Assembly: GCA_016212295.1 (NCBI GenBank)
Contig: JACRGO010000011.1
Span: 1 to 22,952, forward strand
DNA from: Nitrospinota bacterium
GTDB taxonomy: Bacteria; Nitrospinota; Nitrospinia; JACRGO01
DNA length: 22,952 nucleotides
Reading direction: 5' to 3'
Shown: positions 39-19,314 of the stretch, in pieces
Position numbering within the stretch: the stretch's first letter is position 1
How the letters are laid out: each line of letters begins with the position of its first letter
Translations under genes and position numbers: made by a program
The notes under the pieces: generated by a model
Seen by the model: the letters and a program-made list of their open reading frames with translations, nothing else
The model's database searches: none
Told to the model about the DNA's origin: nothing

Positions 39-956
39 CTACACCGTAGCGCCAGGTTGGTCTTCGATTACCTGCGCATGACAAAAAACTCCTGCACCCT
101 TAATGGCGTGTGAGATATGGTAGAACAAATTTACCGTGGTGCTATTGACGGTGTGATTTATATAGTCCATATCTATACTATAAAACCACCCATCTTTCTC
201 TCCATATTTTTGTTCCATAAAAGCCTTTACCATGCAGGGAACAAGCGTTCCAGAACATCCATTAAAAGGATCGGTAATCCCAAGTTTTTCAGAAAGCCCG
301 TCAGTGCCGCAACCGGAATACATTCTCGTTAATACTCTCTCAATGGAGCTTTCCATTACAAACTCTCTATTGGCAGTTGACAGGCTCCATGTAGCGAAAA
401 GATTATTGGCTATACTGAATGTTTTACTGGTCAAATGCTTGGCAACTTCAAAAGGTGTTGGGTTTGACAATACAGCAATGCCGTCATAGGCTTCACTCAA
501 TCCGCCAATAAGTGTCTCGTTTGTGTATTCGGAAGCCGTGCCTTCGCCATAGGATCTCAGTCCGTCTTGTACGATGTCCATTGCCACTTCTTTGGCTCCT
601 CCTTTCACGCCCAACCCCTTTTGAAAATCGAGGAGGCCAGTAGCCACAATCAGCATAGCATCACGGTATTCTTTTTCGCTTATTACGCCATTTTTTTTCA
701 TTTCCGCAGTCGCTTTGTTTGCCCACAATACGGGCAAAAAACCTTTATTAAAAATTCCGAACTGCAGGTCCTTCAGTGGTTCGTGGCAGCTTGTGTTTGC
801 CGAAATAACCTTTTCTCCACTGTCTAAAGCAACGCTTTCAGCGTATGCGGAATGAATCGGGCATAGGAAATTTCCAAGCAACATTCCGAATAATAAAGTA
901 ATGACAAATAAAATTCTTTTTAGATGCAGACAAAAAAGCCAGTTTCTCTTCAACAT
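39..956 (-). CDS. Secreted protein of unknown function (305 aa)
   Basis: Not recognised as any family. The start is firm: an AAGGAGGG ribosome binding site lies about 6 bases before the ATG. Residues 1-39 form a signal peptide with basic residues, a long hydrophobic stretch (about residues 15-33) and an AYA|ES cleavage site after residue 39, so the mature part (about 266 aa) is probably exported to the periplasm or outside. The mature part is soluble-looking and mostly helical, with about five cysteines (for example the CSGTLVPC stretch near residue 235), which would suit disulphides in an exported protein. It lies 45 bases downstream of a 46-codon ORF on the same strand and probably shares its promoter at 1151-1179, divergent from an XRE regulator. 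Function is open. Confidence 0.75.
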   Translation of the reverse strand: MLKRNWLFCLHLKRILFVITLLFGMLLGNFLCPIHSAYAESVALDSGEKVISANTSCHEPLKDLQFGIFNKGFLPVLWANKATAEMKKNGVISEKEYRDAMLIVATGLLDFQKGLGVKGGAKEVAMDIVQDGLRSYGEGTASEYTNETLIGGLSEAYDGIAVLSNPTPFEVAKHLTSKTFSIANNLFATWSLSTANREFVMESSIERVLTRMYSGCGTDGLSEKLGITDPFNGCSGTLVPCMVKAFMEQKYGEKDGWFYSIDMDYINHTVNSTTVNLFYHISHAIKGAGVFCHAQVIEDQPGATV

Positions 957-9685: not shown

Positions 9686-10702
9686 TCACTCCACGACCCT
9701 CCTCCTTATCTTTTCCCCTCCGCTCCACACCTCCATAGCCGTTCCATCAGAGACCTGGAATTCGCCGCTTTTTATCTCCCTGGAATAGAAAAGGGCGGTC
9801 CCCCTTTTGACTTCACAGACTTTATCACCGGTGGAATTCCAGTGAATTTCGCTTATGATATTCACCTTTTCCATGAAACTCCCAGGAAGGACCATTGCCA
9901 CCGTGGAGCCGAAGTTGAAATGGGATTTTTGGCTGCCCCTGGGATGTATCGCAACGTTAGGACCGAAATCCTGCTCAATGGAGTTAACGATGTTGGCCCC
10001 TATCTCCAGGAAAACGTATTTTTCCCTGAAAGCGGCCGCCTCCAAGATGGTTACCACCCTGTGGTTTTCGTCCAGGACCGCCTTTTTATGGGACCGGGAA
10101 TGCCTTATGAATTCAAGGTCAGTGGAGCCGACGAAGAGTCTCTTTTTATTGTATTCCCTGGGGCCGGAAAGTATCCTGGAGGAAACCGGAAAATCAACGG
10201 TATGGCCGTGGTGGGGTTTCAGCGTGAAAACAAACAACTTTCCATTAAGGTACAATTCATTGTCGTTTGTCCCGATCATTTTTGGAACATTAAGAAAAAC
10301 CCCGGGCAGAAACTCCACCGTGTCCCCAGCAATATCCCTGATGCTCAAATAGGAATCGGCAGGGGAAGAAATGAATTTTTCCTTATCTGCTTGCGAGGCG
10401 TCACCCGCAGGATAGATATCTCTTTCGTATTGGTGGATAAAGGCTGAATTGAGGTTATCGTAATTATACTTGCCGTAAGTTTCGCTTAATTGCGCGTTCA
10501 TGGCTTTGGCAATGCCGGAGAAATACAAAAACCTGGACATGGCCTTGCTGTAAAAAACGAGTCCTGCCATCTTTGATACAAATCGGTTGAGGAGAAAAAA
10601 ACGTCCTATGCTTCCCTTCCAGCCGGAGCAAACCAAGGCGACCTCCAGAGGGACCGGCAGGCCCTTTAATTCGCCTGAATCAAAATGAAAAAGCGACAGC
10701 AT
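9686..10702 (-). CDS. Phosphatidylserine decarboxylase-like protein (338 aa)
   Basis: Psd enzymes make phosphatidylethanolamine at the membrane and cut themselves at a serine to form a pyruvoyl group. The self-cleavage motif FGSTV (S266) is present near the end, followed by 70 residues as expected for the small alpha chain, and SSPADS (D116) matches the family's 'SPaDG' aspartate. The opening region NYDNLNSAFIHQYERDIYP parallels the 'FNTFFxRxLKP' segment. The histidine segment differs: PHHGHTVDFPV stands where E. coli has YHRVHMP, so one of the two histidines appears as D170. There is no clear ribosome binding site; the ATG is about 30 bases past the rpoC terminator, so an internal start is possible. 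Convergent with the toxin gene. Confidence 0.75.
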   Translation of the reverse strand: MLSLFHFDSGELKGLPVPLEVALVCSGWKGSIGRFFLLNRFVSKMAGLVFYSKAMSRFLYFSGIAKAMNAQLSETYGKYNYDNLNSAFIHQYERDIYPAGDASQADKEKFISSPADSYLSIRDIAGDTVEFLPGVFLNVPKMIGTNDNELYLNGKLFVFTLKPHHGHTVDFPVSSRILSGPREYNKKRLFVGSTDLEFIRHSRSHKKAVLDENHRVVTILEAAAFREKYVFLEIGANIVNSIEQDFGPNVAIHPRGSQKSHFNFGSTVAMVLPGSFMEKVNIISEIHWNSTGDKVCEVKRGTALFYSREIKSGEFQVSDGTAMEVWSGGEKIRRRVVE

Positions 10703-10804: not shown

Positions 10805-13800
10805 TTATTCACCTAAACCCACAAAGACCTTGATGCCTTCCAACTGGGCAGGGGGGATGGTTTCGTCTCCCTCCTGCTGCTTCGCCACTGACTTATACTC
10901 AACGGTTCTATAAGCCCTGGCGCCTGTCCCTGCCGGGATGGGCCTGCCCATGATGACATTTTCCTTCAGGCCCTTCAGGTAGTCCACCTTGCCGGAGACG
11001 CTCACCTCCGTGAGGACCCTGGTGGTTTCCTGGAAGGAGGCGGCGGAGATGAAGCTTTCAGTGCTCAAGGAAGACTTGGTGATCCCCAGGAGGATGGGTT
11101 TGCCCTTGGCAGGCACGCCGCCCTCTTGCGCCACTTCCTGGTTCGTGTTTTGAAACTGCTGCTTGGTGGCCATTTCCCCTTCAAGGAATTGAGTGTCTCC
11201 AGCTTCCTCTATGACCACATGCTTGAGCATTTGCCTGACAATAACCTCGATGTGCTTGTCATTGACCTGGACGCCTTGGAGGCGGTAGACCTCCTGGACT
11301 TCATTAACCAGGTATTTCTGCAGTTCCTTCTCGCCCAATATCGCGAGGATGTCGTGGGGATTAGCGGCCCCGTCCATGAGCGCCTCTCCGGCCTTGACCC
11401 GGTCGCCTTCGTGGACGTTGATATGCTTTCCACGCTTGATGAGGTATTCCTTTCTCTCGCCTACTTCATTCTCAACTATGACCTTCCTCATTCCTCTTTC
11501 AAAACCGCCGAACGAGACCACGCCGTCAATTTCGGAAATAGTGGCCTGCTCATGGGGCTTTCTGGCTTCAAACAATTCAGCGACCCTCGGCAAGCCCCCG
11601 GTGATGTCCTTTGTCTTGGTGGTCTCCCGCGGGATCTTGGCGATTACGTCTCCGGCGGCCACCTCTTCTCCTTCCGCCACGGACAAATGCGCCCCTGACG
11701 GGAGCAGGTAACGGGCTATGGTCTTGGTCCTCTTTTCCTTGTCCTTTATGGAAACGCGTGGATGCTTGTCCTCTGCCTTATGCTCCTTGATGACCTTCAT
11801 GGAAAGGCCGGTGATTTCGTCCACCTCTTCCTTCATGGTCAGTCCTTCGATGATGTCCCCGAAGGCGATTACCCCGTCCATTTCAGTGAGAATGGACATG
11901 GTATAGGGATCCCATTCCGCAAGGATGTCCCCTTCCTTGACCTCATATCCCTCCTTGATTTTTATTTTTGCGCCATAAACAACGGTGAACCTCTCCTTTT
12001 CCCTTCCATTGGCGTCCTGAACGATCAGGCTTCCGTTCCTGTTCATGGCCACGATATCGCCGTGCTTGTTCTTCACGGTCCTGAGATCGCTGTATTTCAC
12101 GATGCCGCCCTTCAGGGTCTTCAAGGTCGTCTGCTCCACGATCCGGCTTGCGGTGCCGCCTATGTGGAAGGTCCTCATGGTCAACTGTGTCCCGGGCTCT
12201 CCTATGGACTGGGCGGCCACGACTCCCACAGCCTCCCCTATTATAACCAGCTCGCCTGTCGCCAGGTTTCTTCCGTAGCAGAGCTGGCATGCGCCGTCCT
12301 TGGCCTCGCATGTGAGAACGGAGCGGATCTTTACCTTTTCGATGCCGGCATTATCTATCAACTCCAACTGGCCTTCATTGATTTCCTCGCCGGCCTTGAG
12401 CAGTACGTCACCTGTGAAGGGGTCCTGGATGTCCTCGCAGGCTATACGCCCGAGTATTCTTTCCCCAAGGGTCTGAATGATTTCGCCGCCTTCCACCAGG
12501 GGTTTTATCTCAATTCCATTGATGGTGCCGCAATCCCTTTCCAGAATAATGATATCCTGGGCAACGTCCACCAAACGTCTGGTGAGGTACCCTGAATTTG
12601 CGGTCTTCAGCGCTGTATCGGCCAAACCTTTTCTGGCGCCGTGAGTGGAGATGAAATACTGCAACACGGTCAACCCTTCGCGGAAATTGGCTGTTATCGG
12701 GGTCTCAATGATTTCACCGGATGGCTTTGCCATCAAACCACGCATTCCGGCCAATTGCCGGATCTGCTGGGAACTGCCCCTGGCGCCGGAATCGGCCATG
12801 ATATAAATGGAGTTGAACCCCTTTTTCTTTGCTTCATCGGAGGCGGTCCCTTCCACCAGGGCCTCGTCCTGCAGTTCCAATTCCTTGAACATTTCCTCTG
12901 AAACCCTTTCCGTTGAATGAGCCCAGATATCCACGACCTTATTGTATCGCTCGCCGTTTGTTATAAGACCCTTGTGGTATTGTTTCTCCACCTTGATGAC
13001 TTCCTTTTTCGCCTCGTCAACGATCCTGACCTTGGTCTTGGGGATTATCATGTCCTGGATGGAAATGGAGATCCCGGCCTGGGTGGCGTGCTTGAATCCA
13101 AGCGCCTTCAGTTTGTCCAGAAACACTACAGTCGTTTCCCTGCCGGCTTTCAAGTAACTTTCGCTTATGAGCTCGGTCAGGACCTTTTTGTTCATTTCCC
13201 TGTTCACCAGCCTGAAGGGAAGTTCCTTAGGGAATATCTCGTACAGGATGATCCTGCCTGTGGAAGTGACAACGAGTTCTCCGTTCATGCGGACCCTGAT
13301 CCTGGCCTGAAGGCCGATCTTTCCGGCGTCGTAAGCTGATCTTACTTCATCGGAGTTTGAAAATATCTTGTCCTCGCCCTTCAGACCGCCCCTGATTTTC
13401 GTGAGGTAATAGCATCCAAGGATGATGTCCTGGGTGGGAACGGTCAATGGCTTGCCATGCGCCGGGGAAAGGATGTTCTGGGACGCAAGCATGAGCACCT
13501 TGGCCTCCGCCCTGGCTTCAAGGGAAAGCGGGACGTGAACGGCCATCTGGTCCCCGTCGAAGTCGGCGTTGAAGGCCGTGCAGACCAGGGGATGAATTCT
13601 AATGGCCTTTCCCTCGATCAGCACTGGTTCAAAAGCCTGTATGCCAAGCCTGTGCAAGGTGGGCGCCCTGTTCAGCAGTATGGGATGTCCCTTGATGACC
13701 TCTTCCAATACCTTCCAGACCTCCGGGTGGCATTTGTCCACCATCTTCTTGGCGCTTTTTATGGTGGTGGCGTAGCCTTTTTCCTCGAGTTTGTTGAAGA

Positions 13801-14941
13801 CAAAGGGTTTAAAAAGTTCAAGTGCCATTTTTTTCGGGAGCCCGCATTGATGAAACTTTAATTCAGGTCCAACCACTATTACGGAACGGCCGGAGTAATC
13901 GACCCTTTTCCCGAGCAGGTTCTGCCTGAACCGGCCCTGCTTGCCCTTCAACATATCGCTAAGGGACTTCAAGGGCCGCTTGTTGGACCCCTTGAGGATT
14001 CTTCCCCTCCGTCCGTTATCATACAACGCGGACACGGCCTCCTGGAGCATCCTCTTCTCGTTCCGGATGATGATGCTAGGGGCCCTTAATTCGTACAGCC
14101 TCTTGAGCCGGTTGTTCCGGTTTATGACCCTTCGATACAGATCGTTTAGATCGGAGGTGGCGAACCTGCCGCCTTCCAAGGGGACCAAGGGCCTCAATTC
14201 CGGCGGAATGACCGGTATCACCTTCAAAATCATCCACTCCGGCTTATTGCCGGAACTCTTAAACGCCTGGACGATTTTCAGTCTCTTGGTGTATTTCCTT
14301 TTGTTCTGGACGGAATGGGTTTCCTTGATGTCCTTTTTCAAGTCAATGGCAAGCTGGTCGATGTCAATATTCTTGAGCATTTCCTCAATGGCCTCCGCCC
14401 CGATCCCCAGCTTGAAATTTTCATCGTATTTGTCCTGCGCCTCGGCCCTCTGCTCATCGGTCAGGATTTGTCCCACCTTCATCCCGGAATCGCCGGAAGA
14501 AATCACGACGAAGGTCTCGAAATAAAGGACGCGCTCCAGGTCCCGCAGGGTCATGTCCAGCATATTGCCGATGCGGCTTGGGAGGCCCTTGAAAAACCAT
14601 ATGTGCGCCACCGGGCTGGCAAGCTCTATATGGCCCAGGCGCTCTCTCCTTGATTTGGAGAGGGTCACCTCAACGCCGCACTTTTCGCAAATCACCCCTT
14701 TGTGTTTCATGCGCTTGTACTTGCCGCAATTGCACTGCCAATCCTTTATCGGACCGAATATCTTGGCGCAGAACAGACCATCGCGTTCCGGCTTGAAGGT
14801 CCTGTAGTTGATGGTTTCGGGTTTTCTGACTTCGCCGAAGGACCATGATCTGGTTTTTTCAGGAGAGGCTATCCGGATGCGAATGGAGTTAAAATCCAGA
14901 GGGTTCTTGGGTTTTTCGAAAAGATTTAAAAAATCTTTCAT
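10805..14941 (-). CDS. rpoC: DNA-directed RNA polymerase subunit beta' (1378 aa)
   Basis: Largest subunit of RNA polymerase. The N-terminal zinc ribbon has C70, C72, C85 and C88 (DWQCNCGK ... GVICEKCG). The catalytic loop NADFDGDQ is at 458-465, with the Mg-binding aspartates D460, D462 and D464. [19 protein letters not shown]-type switch segment (about 335-352), bridge helix and trigger-loop regions ([25 protein letters not shown]) and the second zinc site (CGTINGIE ... [11 protein letters not shown]) are all present. Length is near the proteobacterial norm (about 1400), without extra inserts. ATG with GGGAA about 7 bases before it; 62 bases downstream of rpoB; followed by the terminator at 10738-10770. 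Confidence 0.98.
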
Positions 14942-15003: not shown

Positions 15004-18000
15004 CTACTGTTTTTTATTTTCCAAAAGCTCAACGTCCAGGGACAGGCTTTGCAGCTCTTTCACCAAGACATTGAAGGACTCCGGCAAGCTGGGCTGGATC
15101 GAGCTTTCTCCCTTGACTATGGACTCATACATGCGCCTCCGGCCTTCCACGTCATCCGACTTGACGGTAAGCATCTCTTGCAAGGTAAACGCGGAGCCAT
15201 ATGCCTCAAGCGCCCAAACCTCCATTTCCCCAAGCCGCTGTCCGCCGAATTGGGCCTTTCCGCCCAACGGCTGCTGGGTGACGAGGGAATAGGGGCCGGT
15301 GGACCTGGCGTGGATTTTGTCGTCCACAAGGTGATGAAGCTTCATCATGTAGATAACGCCGACGGTAACCGGTTGATCAAATTTTTTGCCGAATCTCCCA
15401 TCATTGAGGGTGACTTGGCAAAACTCATTGATATGGGACTCCTTCAGCATTTTGCGTATGTCCTCCTCGGTGGCCCCGTCAAAAACCGGGCTCGCAACGA
15501 AAGTATTTTGCGCCGCCGCCGCCATGCCAAGGTAGGTCTCCAATATCTGCCCGACGTTCATTCTTGATGGAACGCCTAACGGATTGAGTATTATTTCGAT
15601 TGGCGTTCCGTCCTCCATGAACGGCATGTCCTCTTCCGGGACTATCACTGACACCACGCCCTTATTGCCATGCCGGCCAGCCATCTTGTCGCCCACCGAC
15701 AGCTTTCTTTTCATGGCGACGTATACCTTGACTAGTTTTATAACTCCCGGCGCCAGTTCGTCCCCCTTTTTAAGCCTGGAGATTTTTTCGTTCATCGAGT
15801 TCTTCAACTGCTTTACCTTGTCGGTCGAGGCCTCGATTATTTCATTGAATTTTTTAATTGCCTCCGTATCGGATTTACGCAGTACAACGGACGTAAGGTT
15901 CTTGCCGGAAAGTTCCTTCAATAATTCAGCGGCCAGGTGCTTTCCCTTGGCGGCGATCGTTTTTTTAGACTTTGGATCTTCGATAGGCTCGGCCAGGACC
16001 TTGTCCACCAGAAAGGAACGAAGCTGGTTGTCCCTCTCAATCAAGGTGATCTTTATCTCCTCAAGGGTATCGTTTTCCAGGGCTGTTATCTCTTCTTCCT
16101 CAATGGACTGGGACCTGGAGTCCTTTTCCATGCCTCTTCTGGAGAAAACCTGGACCTTGATTACCGTTCCTTCCACTCCGGGCGGAACCCTGAGGGACGT
16201 GTCCCGCACGTCCTCCGCTTTTTCTCCGAAGATCGCCTTCAGGAGCTTTTCCTCCGGGCTGAGCTGGGTCTCGCCCTTGGGGGTAATCTTGCCGACCAGG
16301 ATATCGTCCGGCTGAATTTTGGCCCCAAGCCTTATGATTCCGCTTTCATCCAGGTCCTTCAAGGCCTCCTCGCCTATATTAGGGATGTCCCTCGTGATTT
16401 CTTCCTTTCCCTGCTTGGTGTCGCGCGCCTCGACCTCGAACTCCTCGATGTGAATGGAGGTGTAGACGTCTTCCCTTACCAATTTTTCGCTGACTATGAT
16501 GGCGTCTTCGAAATTGTATCCTTCCCACGGCAAAAAGGCGACGCGCACATTCCGCCCCAGCGCCAATTCGCCGTTATCGGTGCAAAAGCCATCGGCTATG
16601 ACATCGCCCCTTTTGACCTTTTCCCCGATCTTCACAATGGACTTCTGGTTAATGCAGGTGTTCTGGTTGGATTTCTGGAATTTTTTCAGCGAATATATGT
16701 CAACGTTGGACTCAGGGTTCAGCGTGTCCTTGTCCGTAAAGCTCTTGCGGACGACTATCCTTTGCGCGTCCACGAACACTATTTCGCCCGAATTCCTGGC
16801 CACGACCACTGCCCCGGAGTCCCTGGCGACGATATCTTCCATGCCAGTCCCTACCCTGGGGGCCTCTGTTCTCATAAGGGGAACGGCCTGCCTCTGCATG
16901 TTGGAGCCCATCAAGGCCCTATTGGCGTCGTCGTGCTCCAAAAACGGGATAAGGGACGCGGCCACGCTTATGAGCTGCTTTGGCGAAATTTCCATATAAT
17001 GGATTTTTTCCGGCTCCACCATCACATACTCCCCGCTGTGCCTGGCCGAAATCATCTCGCTTGTAAAACGGTTGCCCTTGTCCATTTCCGTTTTTGCCTG
17101 GGCGATTACAAACTTCTCTTCCTGGGAAGCGGTGAGGAAATCAACCGTGTCCGTGGCCCTGCCGCTTTCCACCCTTCGATAGGGGGTTTCTATGAATCCG
17201 AACTGGTTGACGCGCGCAAAGGCGCTCAATGATGCTATCAAACCGATATTCGGCCCTTCAGGGGTCTCCACCGGACATATCCGTCCATAATGCGTGGGAT
17301 GGACGTCCCTGACCTCGAATCCGGCGCGTTCCCTGGTCAATCCTCCAGGACCCAAGGCGCTCAACCGGCGTTTGTGGGTTATTTCAGAAAGGGGATTGGT
17401 TTGGTCCATGAACTGGGACAATTGGCTGCTGCCGAAAAATTCCTTTATGGCCGCTGAAATAGGCTTTGAATTTATCAAATCATGCGGCATCGCTACCGCC
17501 ATGTCGGTTATGCTCATCCGCTCCCTTATGGCCCTTTCCATCCGGACCATGCCGACGCGGAACTGGTTTTCTATGGACTCGCCCACTGACCGTATCCTCC
17601 GGTTTCCAAGGTGGTCAATGTCGTCAATATTGCCGATTCCCTGGCGAAGGTTCAGCAAGTACCGGACAACGGCAATTATGTCATCTTTCGTCAAGGTCCT
17701 CTGATCAAGAGGAAAATCGAGGCAAAGCCTCTCGTTCATTTTAAGCCTGCCGACTTCCGAGAGGTCATAGCGGGCCATATCAAAAAACAAGGCGCGCAAT
17801 AAGGACCTGGCGACATCCAGCGATGGCGGGTCCCCTGGCCTCATTCTCTTATAAATCTCGCCCACGGCCTCTTCTGTCGTGCTGACCTTGCTGACCGCCA
17901 GCGTGTCCCTTAGCGCTGTGTCAGGGTGGCTTTCATCAATGCGAAGGATATAAAAATCCTGGATTTTAAGCTCCTTCATCTTGTCCAGCAGCGATTCAGT

Positions 18001-19314
18001 AACCGCGGTATTTTCTTCTCCTATGACCAATCCGGTGCTTTCATCCACCACGTCATAAGCAAATATTTTTCCAACGATGTCGGATGGCCTTCGCACCGCC
18101 TTTTTGTGGCATTTTCCGCATATTACGTCCTGTCCTTCTGGTTTCTTGAATTTAAATTCGCCGCAACCGCACTCCCATCCGCCGTCATCCACGGCCACTG
18201 TGGGGATGTCTTTCAACTTCCCTATTCTCTTCAGGGAAGCCTTAGTGGCTTTTTTAAATGCCTTCAGCAAAACCTCGTCCTTGTTTTGCGGATCAAGGAC
18301 ATCGGTCTTGACTCTCATGCCTGTCAAGACCTCGGATGCCTTCATGTATAATTCGCCGGTGTCCGCGCAGGAAATCCTGGAAACATCATAAAACTCGGCC
18401 AGCAATTCGGCATTGCTGTAACCGATGGCCTGGAGGAGGACAGTCGCCGGGAATTTTCTGCGGCGGTCAATCCTTACAAAAAGAATGTCCTTTATGTCAA
18501 ACTCGAAATCCAGCCATGACCCCCTATAGGGGATAATCCGCGCTGAGTAGAGAAACTTTCCACTGGGATGGGATTTTCCCTTATCGTGGCTGAAAAAGGT
18601 CCCAGGAGACCGGTGCATCTGGCTTACAATGACCCTCTCAACCCCATTAACGACAAAAGTGCCGTTGTCCGTCATGAGGGGTATTTCGCCCAAATAAATC
18701 TTCTGCTCCTTTATTTCCCGGATGCTCCTTACCGTCAACTCGCCGGAGTATTCCTTTTCGAGAACGCCCAAATCCTCCTTAAGGAACTTGTGGCCGGCGG
18801 GGAAAATCAGCCTGCCTGTTTTGCGGTCCGAGATATCATCGCAGGCGAATTTGCCCACCAGGCTTGGATCCAAATGAGAGGGGCATTCAATTTTTTCCTT
18901 ATCATATTGAGCAAGCCTGACCAAGACCTTGATCGGGTCGGCATAGGTCATGCCTTTTTGGTGGCACTCATCAATGCTATATTTCAACTTATGCGTCAGT
19001 TTTTTCTTGCATTTTCCACAAACCACCGCGCTGGAGCCCAGACCCGCGTAGTCGCCGCACTCACACTCCCAACTCCCGATCTCATACCCCACATATTCCA
19101 GGGAATTTGTTTTATTGATATCGTTTATCGGGAAAACGGACTTAAAAACCTCCTCCAGCCCGCAAAACCCGCGCCGGGAGGGGAGACTATCCAATTGTAA
19201 AAAGCGTTCAAAAGATTTCTTTTGAATCTCAATCAGGTTTGGAATAGAAACTATGTCGGGAATTTTAGCGAAGTTTTTTCTGTCCCTTCGCTTTCTAACT
19301 TTTTCTTTGGCCAT
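15004..19314 (-). CDS. rpoB: DNA-directed RNA polymerase subunit beta with two zinc-ribbon-like insertions (1436 aa)
   Basis: Beta subunit of RNA polymerase. The rifampicin pocket is intact ([18 protein letters not shown], then [13 protein letters not shown]): positions equal to E. coli D516, H526 and S531 are D637, H647 and S652, with T639 for N518. The C-terminal [11 protein letters not shown] and [20 protein letters not shown] segments are normal. Unusual is the N-terminal lobe, about 120 residues longer than in E. coli before the rifampicin region: C84-x-C86 ... C99-x2-C102 (WECECGDY ... VVCGKCKK) and C382-x-C384 ... C399-x2-C402 (WECGCGEF ... VICGKCHK) look like zinc ribbons, and residues 151-195 look like an extra copy of the lobe segment at 412-457. 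ATG with GGGAG about 8 bases before it. Confidence 0.97.

Follow-up and report, generated by a model that had tools for sequence, protein, structure and literature searches.

A putative zinc ribbon in the beta1 lobe of Nitrospinota RNA polymerase is related to the N-terminal ribbon of the beta' subunit

Lineage-specific inserts set the RNA polymerases of different phyla apart, and the literature on them stresses two kinds of module, BBM2/BEAN and SBHM/HABAS. BBM2/BEAN inserts are modules common to the beta and beta' subunits that occupy lineage-specific sites (Opalka 2010, PMC2939025; Alvarez-Carreno 2024, PMC11515920). The survey of beta and beta' inserts left out those shorter than 50 residues without database similarity and does not mention zinc (PMC11515920). 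A zinc ribbon is known from the N-terminus of beta' (the beta' ZBD, or beta'-bD1 in the Alvarez-Carreno scheme), where in at least one case, that of putRNA, it binds RNA (PMC9378689). For the beta subunit of bacteria we found no report of a zinc ribbon in the open-access literature, and a mention in the Lane and Darst or Iyer originals is possible. Here, we describe two four-cysteine ribbons, termed Z1 and Z2, in the beta subunit of a member of the Nitrospinota, and compare them with the beta' ribbon, with the BBM2/BEAN modules and with the proteins that dock on the same lobe.

The window, i.e., the whole stretch of 22,952 nucleotides analysed here, belongs to a Nitrospinota genome whose genus is represented by two species in our comparison set. 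It contains rpoB (15004-19314, minus strand; 1436 aa; NCBIfam TIGR02013, 1799 bits), encoding the RNA polymerase beta subunit, and rpoC (10805-14941, minus strand; 1378 aa; TIGR02386, 1795 bits), encoding beta'. Directly 3' of rpoC, on the same strand, is a phosphatidylserine decarboxylase-like gene (9686-10702, minus strand). Near the start of the window, an ORF of 305 aa (39-956, minus strand) has no Pfam match at E 0.001 and is possibly not a gene. RpoB has 18 cysteines, eight of which form two groups of four (residues 84, 86, 99 and 102, and residues 382, 384, 399 and 402). A sequence-only reading of this DNA had placed a ribbon at each group, and we confirm both in their position and in their cysteine spacing. 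Z1 (18988-19077, minus strand; RpoB 80-109) reads W82-E-C84-E-C86-G-D-Y ... V-C99-G-K-C102, with W82 to C102 at nt 19071-19009. The N-terminal ribbon of RpoC, the likely source of Z1 (14663-14740, minus strand; RpoC 68-93; Cys 70, 72, 85 and 88), reads W68-Q-C70-N-C72-G-K-Y ... C85-E-K-C88. The spacing C-x-C-x12-C-x2-C is the same in Z1 and the RpoC ribbon, and the middle interval is x14 in Z2.

The resemblance of Z1 to the beta' ribbon is not confined to this spacing. Both have a Trp before the first Cys as well as the elements CG-x-Y/F and V-C-x-x-C, and hhalign gave 98.05% for the two profiles (98% similarity). Z1 shares with the beta' ribbon family this profile similarity and the four cysteines with their preceding Trp; it differs in having an acidic instead of a basic loop, in having lost the cysteines in several lineages and, as does Z2, in lying in beta rather than at the N-terminus of beta'. 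For each of the three pairs formed by Z1, Z2 and the RpoC ribbon, one partner was shuffled 2000 times and no shuffle scored as high as the real alignment; blastp between RpoB and RpoC, run unfiltered, returned E = 3e-4 for Z1 and E = 1e-3 for Z2. The likeness among the three therefore lies above chance.

It could be argued that Z1 and Z2 are unrelated to beta' and merely converged on a common zinc-knuckle pattern, given that zinc ribbons are generally known to be short and easily convergent. No result here favours such convergence, and several make it improbable. When 13 Z1 sequences, trimmed to minimal flanks, were made into a profile and searched against 177,635 distinct PDB sequences, 60 of the 60 matches listed were beta'/gamma chains (best E = 4.5e-5) and not the many other ribbons, which bears out the match to RpoC expected from the earlier claim. 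When whole Nitrospinota genomes were searched with Z1 plus its flanks, the RpoC ribbon came second in nearly every genome (E about 3e-7 to 7e-6), nearly always with no match beyond these two. Moreover, the pattern common to Z1 and the RpoC ribbon reaches past the cysteines to W, G, Y/F, V, K and V. By these profile and alignment comparisons, Z1 is related to the beta' N-terminal ribbon. We infer that copying ran from beta' to beta, because the beta' ribbon occurs in every beta' compared and Z1 in some lineages only.

Z1 is inserted in the beta1 lobe, or protrusion. This lobe is close to the upstream part of the bubble, and CarD and Mfd bind to it in other bacteria (PMC4593161, PMC7864632). The lobe (beta-uD1), which hosts both Z1 and a further insert, X, is outside the five insertion sites listed in PMC11515920. 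With a Z1 profile that included flanks, E. coli and other PDB beta subunits gave two matching stretches per chain, both confined to the flanks, and their alignment resumed at profile column 54/55, corresponding to E. coli residue 80. These chains are therefore without the insert, and the statement of the sequence-only reading that E. coli-type beta lacks these cysteines proved correct. A 720-residue AlphaFold model gave Z1 a pLDDT of about 87-88 and Z2 one of 59-73, with the same strand pattern in the second knuckle of each; Z1 modelled in isolation reached a poor 49.5. The 720-residue model aligned to E. coli beta across the Z1 region with a Z of about 28. The fold comparison of this model had beta subunits only among the matches listed, which is uninformative on the ribbons because such matches are expected from the whole 720-residue model. 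Pfam scans of Z1, Z2 and X, each alone, returned no family above cut-off.

The distribution of Z1 was examined across Nitrospinota and beyond. A Z1 profile matched 62 of 72 Nitrospinota genomes, one of which (G050) matched through RpoC only. Most of the ten genomes without a match were without an RpoC match too, and the rpoBC region is therefore probably absent from these incomplete assemblies. Wherever a Nitrospinota RpoB aligned over the region, both the insert and Trp82 were present (63 of 63 distinct sequences). A search of 84,980 species for one strict peptide pattern returned 45 loci, nearly all from Nitrospinota, a result that could miss diverged versions in other phyla because a single strict pattern was used. 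One exception, L107, led us to a second phylum, where six of eight genomes (G073, G081-G085; loci L107, L114-L125) have an insert at the same site and the remaining two gave no RpoB match at all with a longer RpoB query. This second-phylum insert has eight invariant cysteines and is apparently a ribbon nested in a ribbon, on an inferred pairing of the cysteines. Judged by the sequences compared, Z1 is a lineage-specific insert, restricted to few lineages and absent from other bacterial beta subunits at this site.

Two further observations concern the sequences gathered here. The RpoC ORFs of the second phylum measured 1577-1601 aa in G081, G082 and G084 (L128-L130) versus 1375-1382 aa in the other three genomes, which suggests a large beta' insert in the longer ones. 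Separately, a locus labelled as Verrucomicrobiota (L098) grouped inside Nitrospinota on the tree, and we rejected it as a Verrucomicrobiota RpoB; its contig is probably mislabelled or a contaminant.

The four cysteines of Z1 are predicted to bind zinc. Among the 63 RpoBs, the four positions read CCCC in 53, NECT in three, TECT in one, TQDT in two, TQDS in one, VGDT in two and TGDT in one. The ten Z1s that have lost ligands lack three or four cysteines together, with no case of a loss limited to one or two. When mapped by parsimony onto a FastTree phylogeny from which the insert had been left out, Cys loss required five changes, a count to be taken as rough since the sequences are related. In the ligand-losing lineages (L014, L020-L022, L137-L141 and L147) the second knuckle has become D/C-x-x-T/S-G, and W82, E83, E88, Y/F89, L92, G93, G94, V97 and K111 are kept in these domains. 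Such all-or-none loss on a kept scaffold therefore points to one shared structural metal site, and the ligand-losing Z1 is, by this alignment, a natural zinc-free form of the domain. The sequence-only reading had named redox or zinc sensing among the possible roles. Sensors of this kind would tune transcription upon a change in metal or thiol state, and four reactive cysteines on the surface of the enzyme would suit such a role. However, about five lineages lost the ligands together and kept the rest of the domain, which fits a structural metal better; for Z1 we consider the earlier suggestion disfavoured, and sensing by either ribbon very unlikely.

Modules of the BBM2/BEAN type are present in this polymerase as well. 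The betai4 of RpoB is a standard tandem of BBM2 modules (first, 18187-18363, minus strand, RpoB 318-376; second, 17926-18084, minus strand, RpoB 411-463), and RpoC has a BBM2/BEAN module of its own (12320-12466, minus strand, RpoC 826-874). X (18739-18894, minus strand; RpoB 141-192), which the sequence-only reading had missed and which is located in the beta1 lobe immediately ahead of the IKEQ strand, is a further BBM2/BEAN-like module by profile similarity: hhalign gave 98.1% to the second betai4 module, its closest relative, 95.6% to the first and 95.8% to the beta' BBM2, with which blastp also aligned it (E = 1.8e-4). TG(D/E) is the motif of BEAN domains in beta (PMC11515920). It was found in none of the X relatives shown: the X of the window reads TGR at this point, and that of many relatives reads TGK. 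The insert is missing in one clade (L023-L028) and present in the remaining Nitrospinota RpoBs compared, a distribution by which X is gained or lost within Nitrospinota. Z1 differs from these modules and is not a BBM2, with hhalign values under 0.1% (0.06% against X, 0.04% against the beta' BBM2).

Z2 (18088-18186, minus strand; RpoB 377-409) reads W380-E-C382-G-C384-G-E-F ... I-C399-G-K-C402 (nt 18177-18109) and occupies exactly the junction of the two BBM2 modules that make up betai4 in tandem. Among the 63 distinct Nitrospinota RpoBs it was found only in the two species of the window's genus. In E. coli, betai4 corresponds to Si1, which contributes to the channel wall around downstream DNA and contacts TraR (PMC6970531). 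Both ribbons had earlier been placed near downstream DNA; this fits the site of Z2 and is not supported for Z1, which sits in the upstream-side beta1 lobe (PMC4593161, PMC7864632). The companion claim that the ribbon was copied from beta' into two places likewise fits Z1, whereas Z2 more closely resembles Z1 (hhalign score 62) than the RpoC ribbon (40), with 98.6% for the Z2-Z1 pair. Z2 also scored 25.7-26.2 bits with the Z1 profile versus 9.9-16.6 bits with that of RpoC, a comparison that is not perfectly fair as the Z1 model is broader. Constrained trees deriving Z2 from Z1 or from beta' differed by about one log-likelihood unit (lnL -1162.7 versus -1163.7) over some 30 columns, too little to separate the two origins. 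Z2 is probably a copy of Z1.

Between the two species of the genus, Z2 has a saturated pS of 0.82 versus a pN of 0.255 and keeps its Trp and all four cysteines (4/4); by this measure, Z2 is under purifying selection. We rejected an assembly artefact as the origin of Z2, given its presence in the assemblies of two species at saturated synonymous divergence. The same comparison bears on whether the inserts are near-neutral passengers, lineage-specific extensions kept because their loss is rarely favoured. Inserts are common in bacterial RNA polymerases, E. coli betai4 was first called dispensable (PMC2939025), and evolution has been faster in Z1, X and Z2 than in the core (amino-acid identity 0.52-0.63 versus 0.85 between the two species). 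On the other hand, Z1 occurs in 63 of 63 RpoBs, always with its Trp, and both Z1 and Z2 show a pN much lower than their pS, so we regard a passenger status as distinctly unlikely.

What the ribbons may contact was approached through their charge, which is a weak guide to function. The mean net charge of Z1 across the phylum is -2.8 versus +4.1 for the RpoC ribbon, and that of Z2 is +3 to +4. In the loop between the Cys pairs, the mean is -1.2 for Z1 versus +4.6 for RpoC, the KYKRMKHK loop of beta' being gone in Z1. The C-terminal tail of Z1 tips its overall charge slightly above zero (+1 to +2) in the genus of the window, which weakens the charge argument there. As Z1 is acidic and has lost the basic loop of beta', docking or packing of a protein is favoured over contact with DNA. 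The competing reading, in which Z1 and Z2 are nucleic-acid contacts, with Z1 on the upstream duplex or non-template strand and Z2 on downstream DNA, would parallel the beta' ribbon and RNA at the exit channel. DNA passes close to both sites, along the upstream bubble in the case of the beta1 lobe (PMC4593161) and along the downstream channel in that of the beta lobe-Si1 (PMC6970531); the binding of putRNA by the beta' ZBD sets a precedent, and the net positive charge of Z2 suits it. Nevertheless, the acidity of Z1 throughout the phylum and the absence of the basic loop weigh against it, and we deem it unlikely, while granting it some weight.

The lobe that carries Z1 serves as a docking site on the upstream face for CarD and for the RID of Mfd. 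These are separate proteins with a Tudor-like fold, whereas Z1 would be a putative docking ribbon built into the polymerase itself. Of 32 near-complete Nitrospinota genomes, 30 encode a RID protein, which is usually as long as Mfd (about 1150 aa) and nearly always the sole one; a second was found in G043 only, and none in the assembly of the window, which is possibly incomplete. With nearly all Nitrospinota having one RID protein, mostly of Mfd length, CarD was rejected as the partner of Z1. DksA-type zinc fingers occurred in all genomes tested. The presence of RID and DksA-type proteins means that the usual partners of both lobes exist, and none is linked to the ribbons.

Taken together, we favour, at a probability of roughly 55%, a reading in which Z1 is a beta'-derived structural zinc ribbon that docks or packs a protein at the upstream face, and Z2 a later copy near the downstream channel. 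Under this docking reading, a ribbon derived from the beta' N-terminus would have been placed in the beta1 lobe of Nitrospinota RNA polymerase, where its four cysteines most likely hold one Zn(II). The zinc would stiffen a small surface made up of Trp82, Glu83/88, Tyr/Phe89 and the LGG turn. The most likely use of the acidic Z1 surface is to dock a protein, or to pack against one, on the upstream face of the enzyme, which in other bacteria receives Mfd and CarD; a grip on nucleic acid is unlikely. The metal may act as a replaceable strut: the scaffold has outlasted its loss on at least about five occasions. Z2 would be a later ribbon at the level of the genus, probably copied from Z1 and situated beside the downstream channel; the C-terminal half of Z2 is basic and could contact DNA or a factor in the secondary channel.

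A broader view, which we offer tentatively and do not hold to be the likelier outcome, would place the beta' ribbon alongside BBM2 and SBHM as the third portable module of bacterial RNA polymerase. Such a module would have been planted in the beta1 lobe either once, before the two phyla diverged, or independently in each. Further copies would have followed, one inside the ribbon itself (in one phylum) and one in betai4 (in a genus of Nitrospinota). The role of the ribbon would have shifted from nucleic-acid contact to protein docking, and zinc would have become a strut that can be removed.

The main nitrite oxidisers of the sea are members of the Nitrospinota, which lends ecological weight to the polymerase of this phylum. 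If our reading is true, a beta'-derived ribbon in the beta1 lobe would constitute a third module shared between beta and beta', located at the very lobe used by Mfd and CarD, and its repeated all-or-none ligand loss would offer a natural experiment on the zinc requirement of such ribbons.
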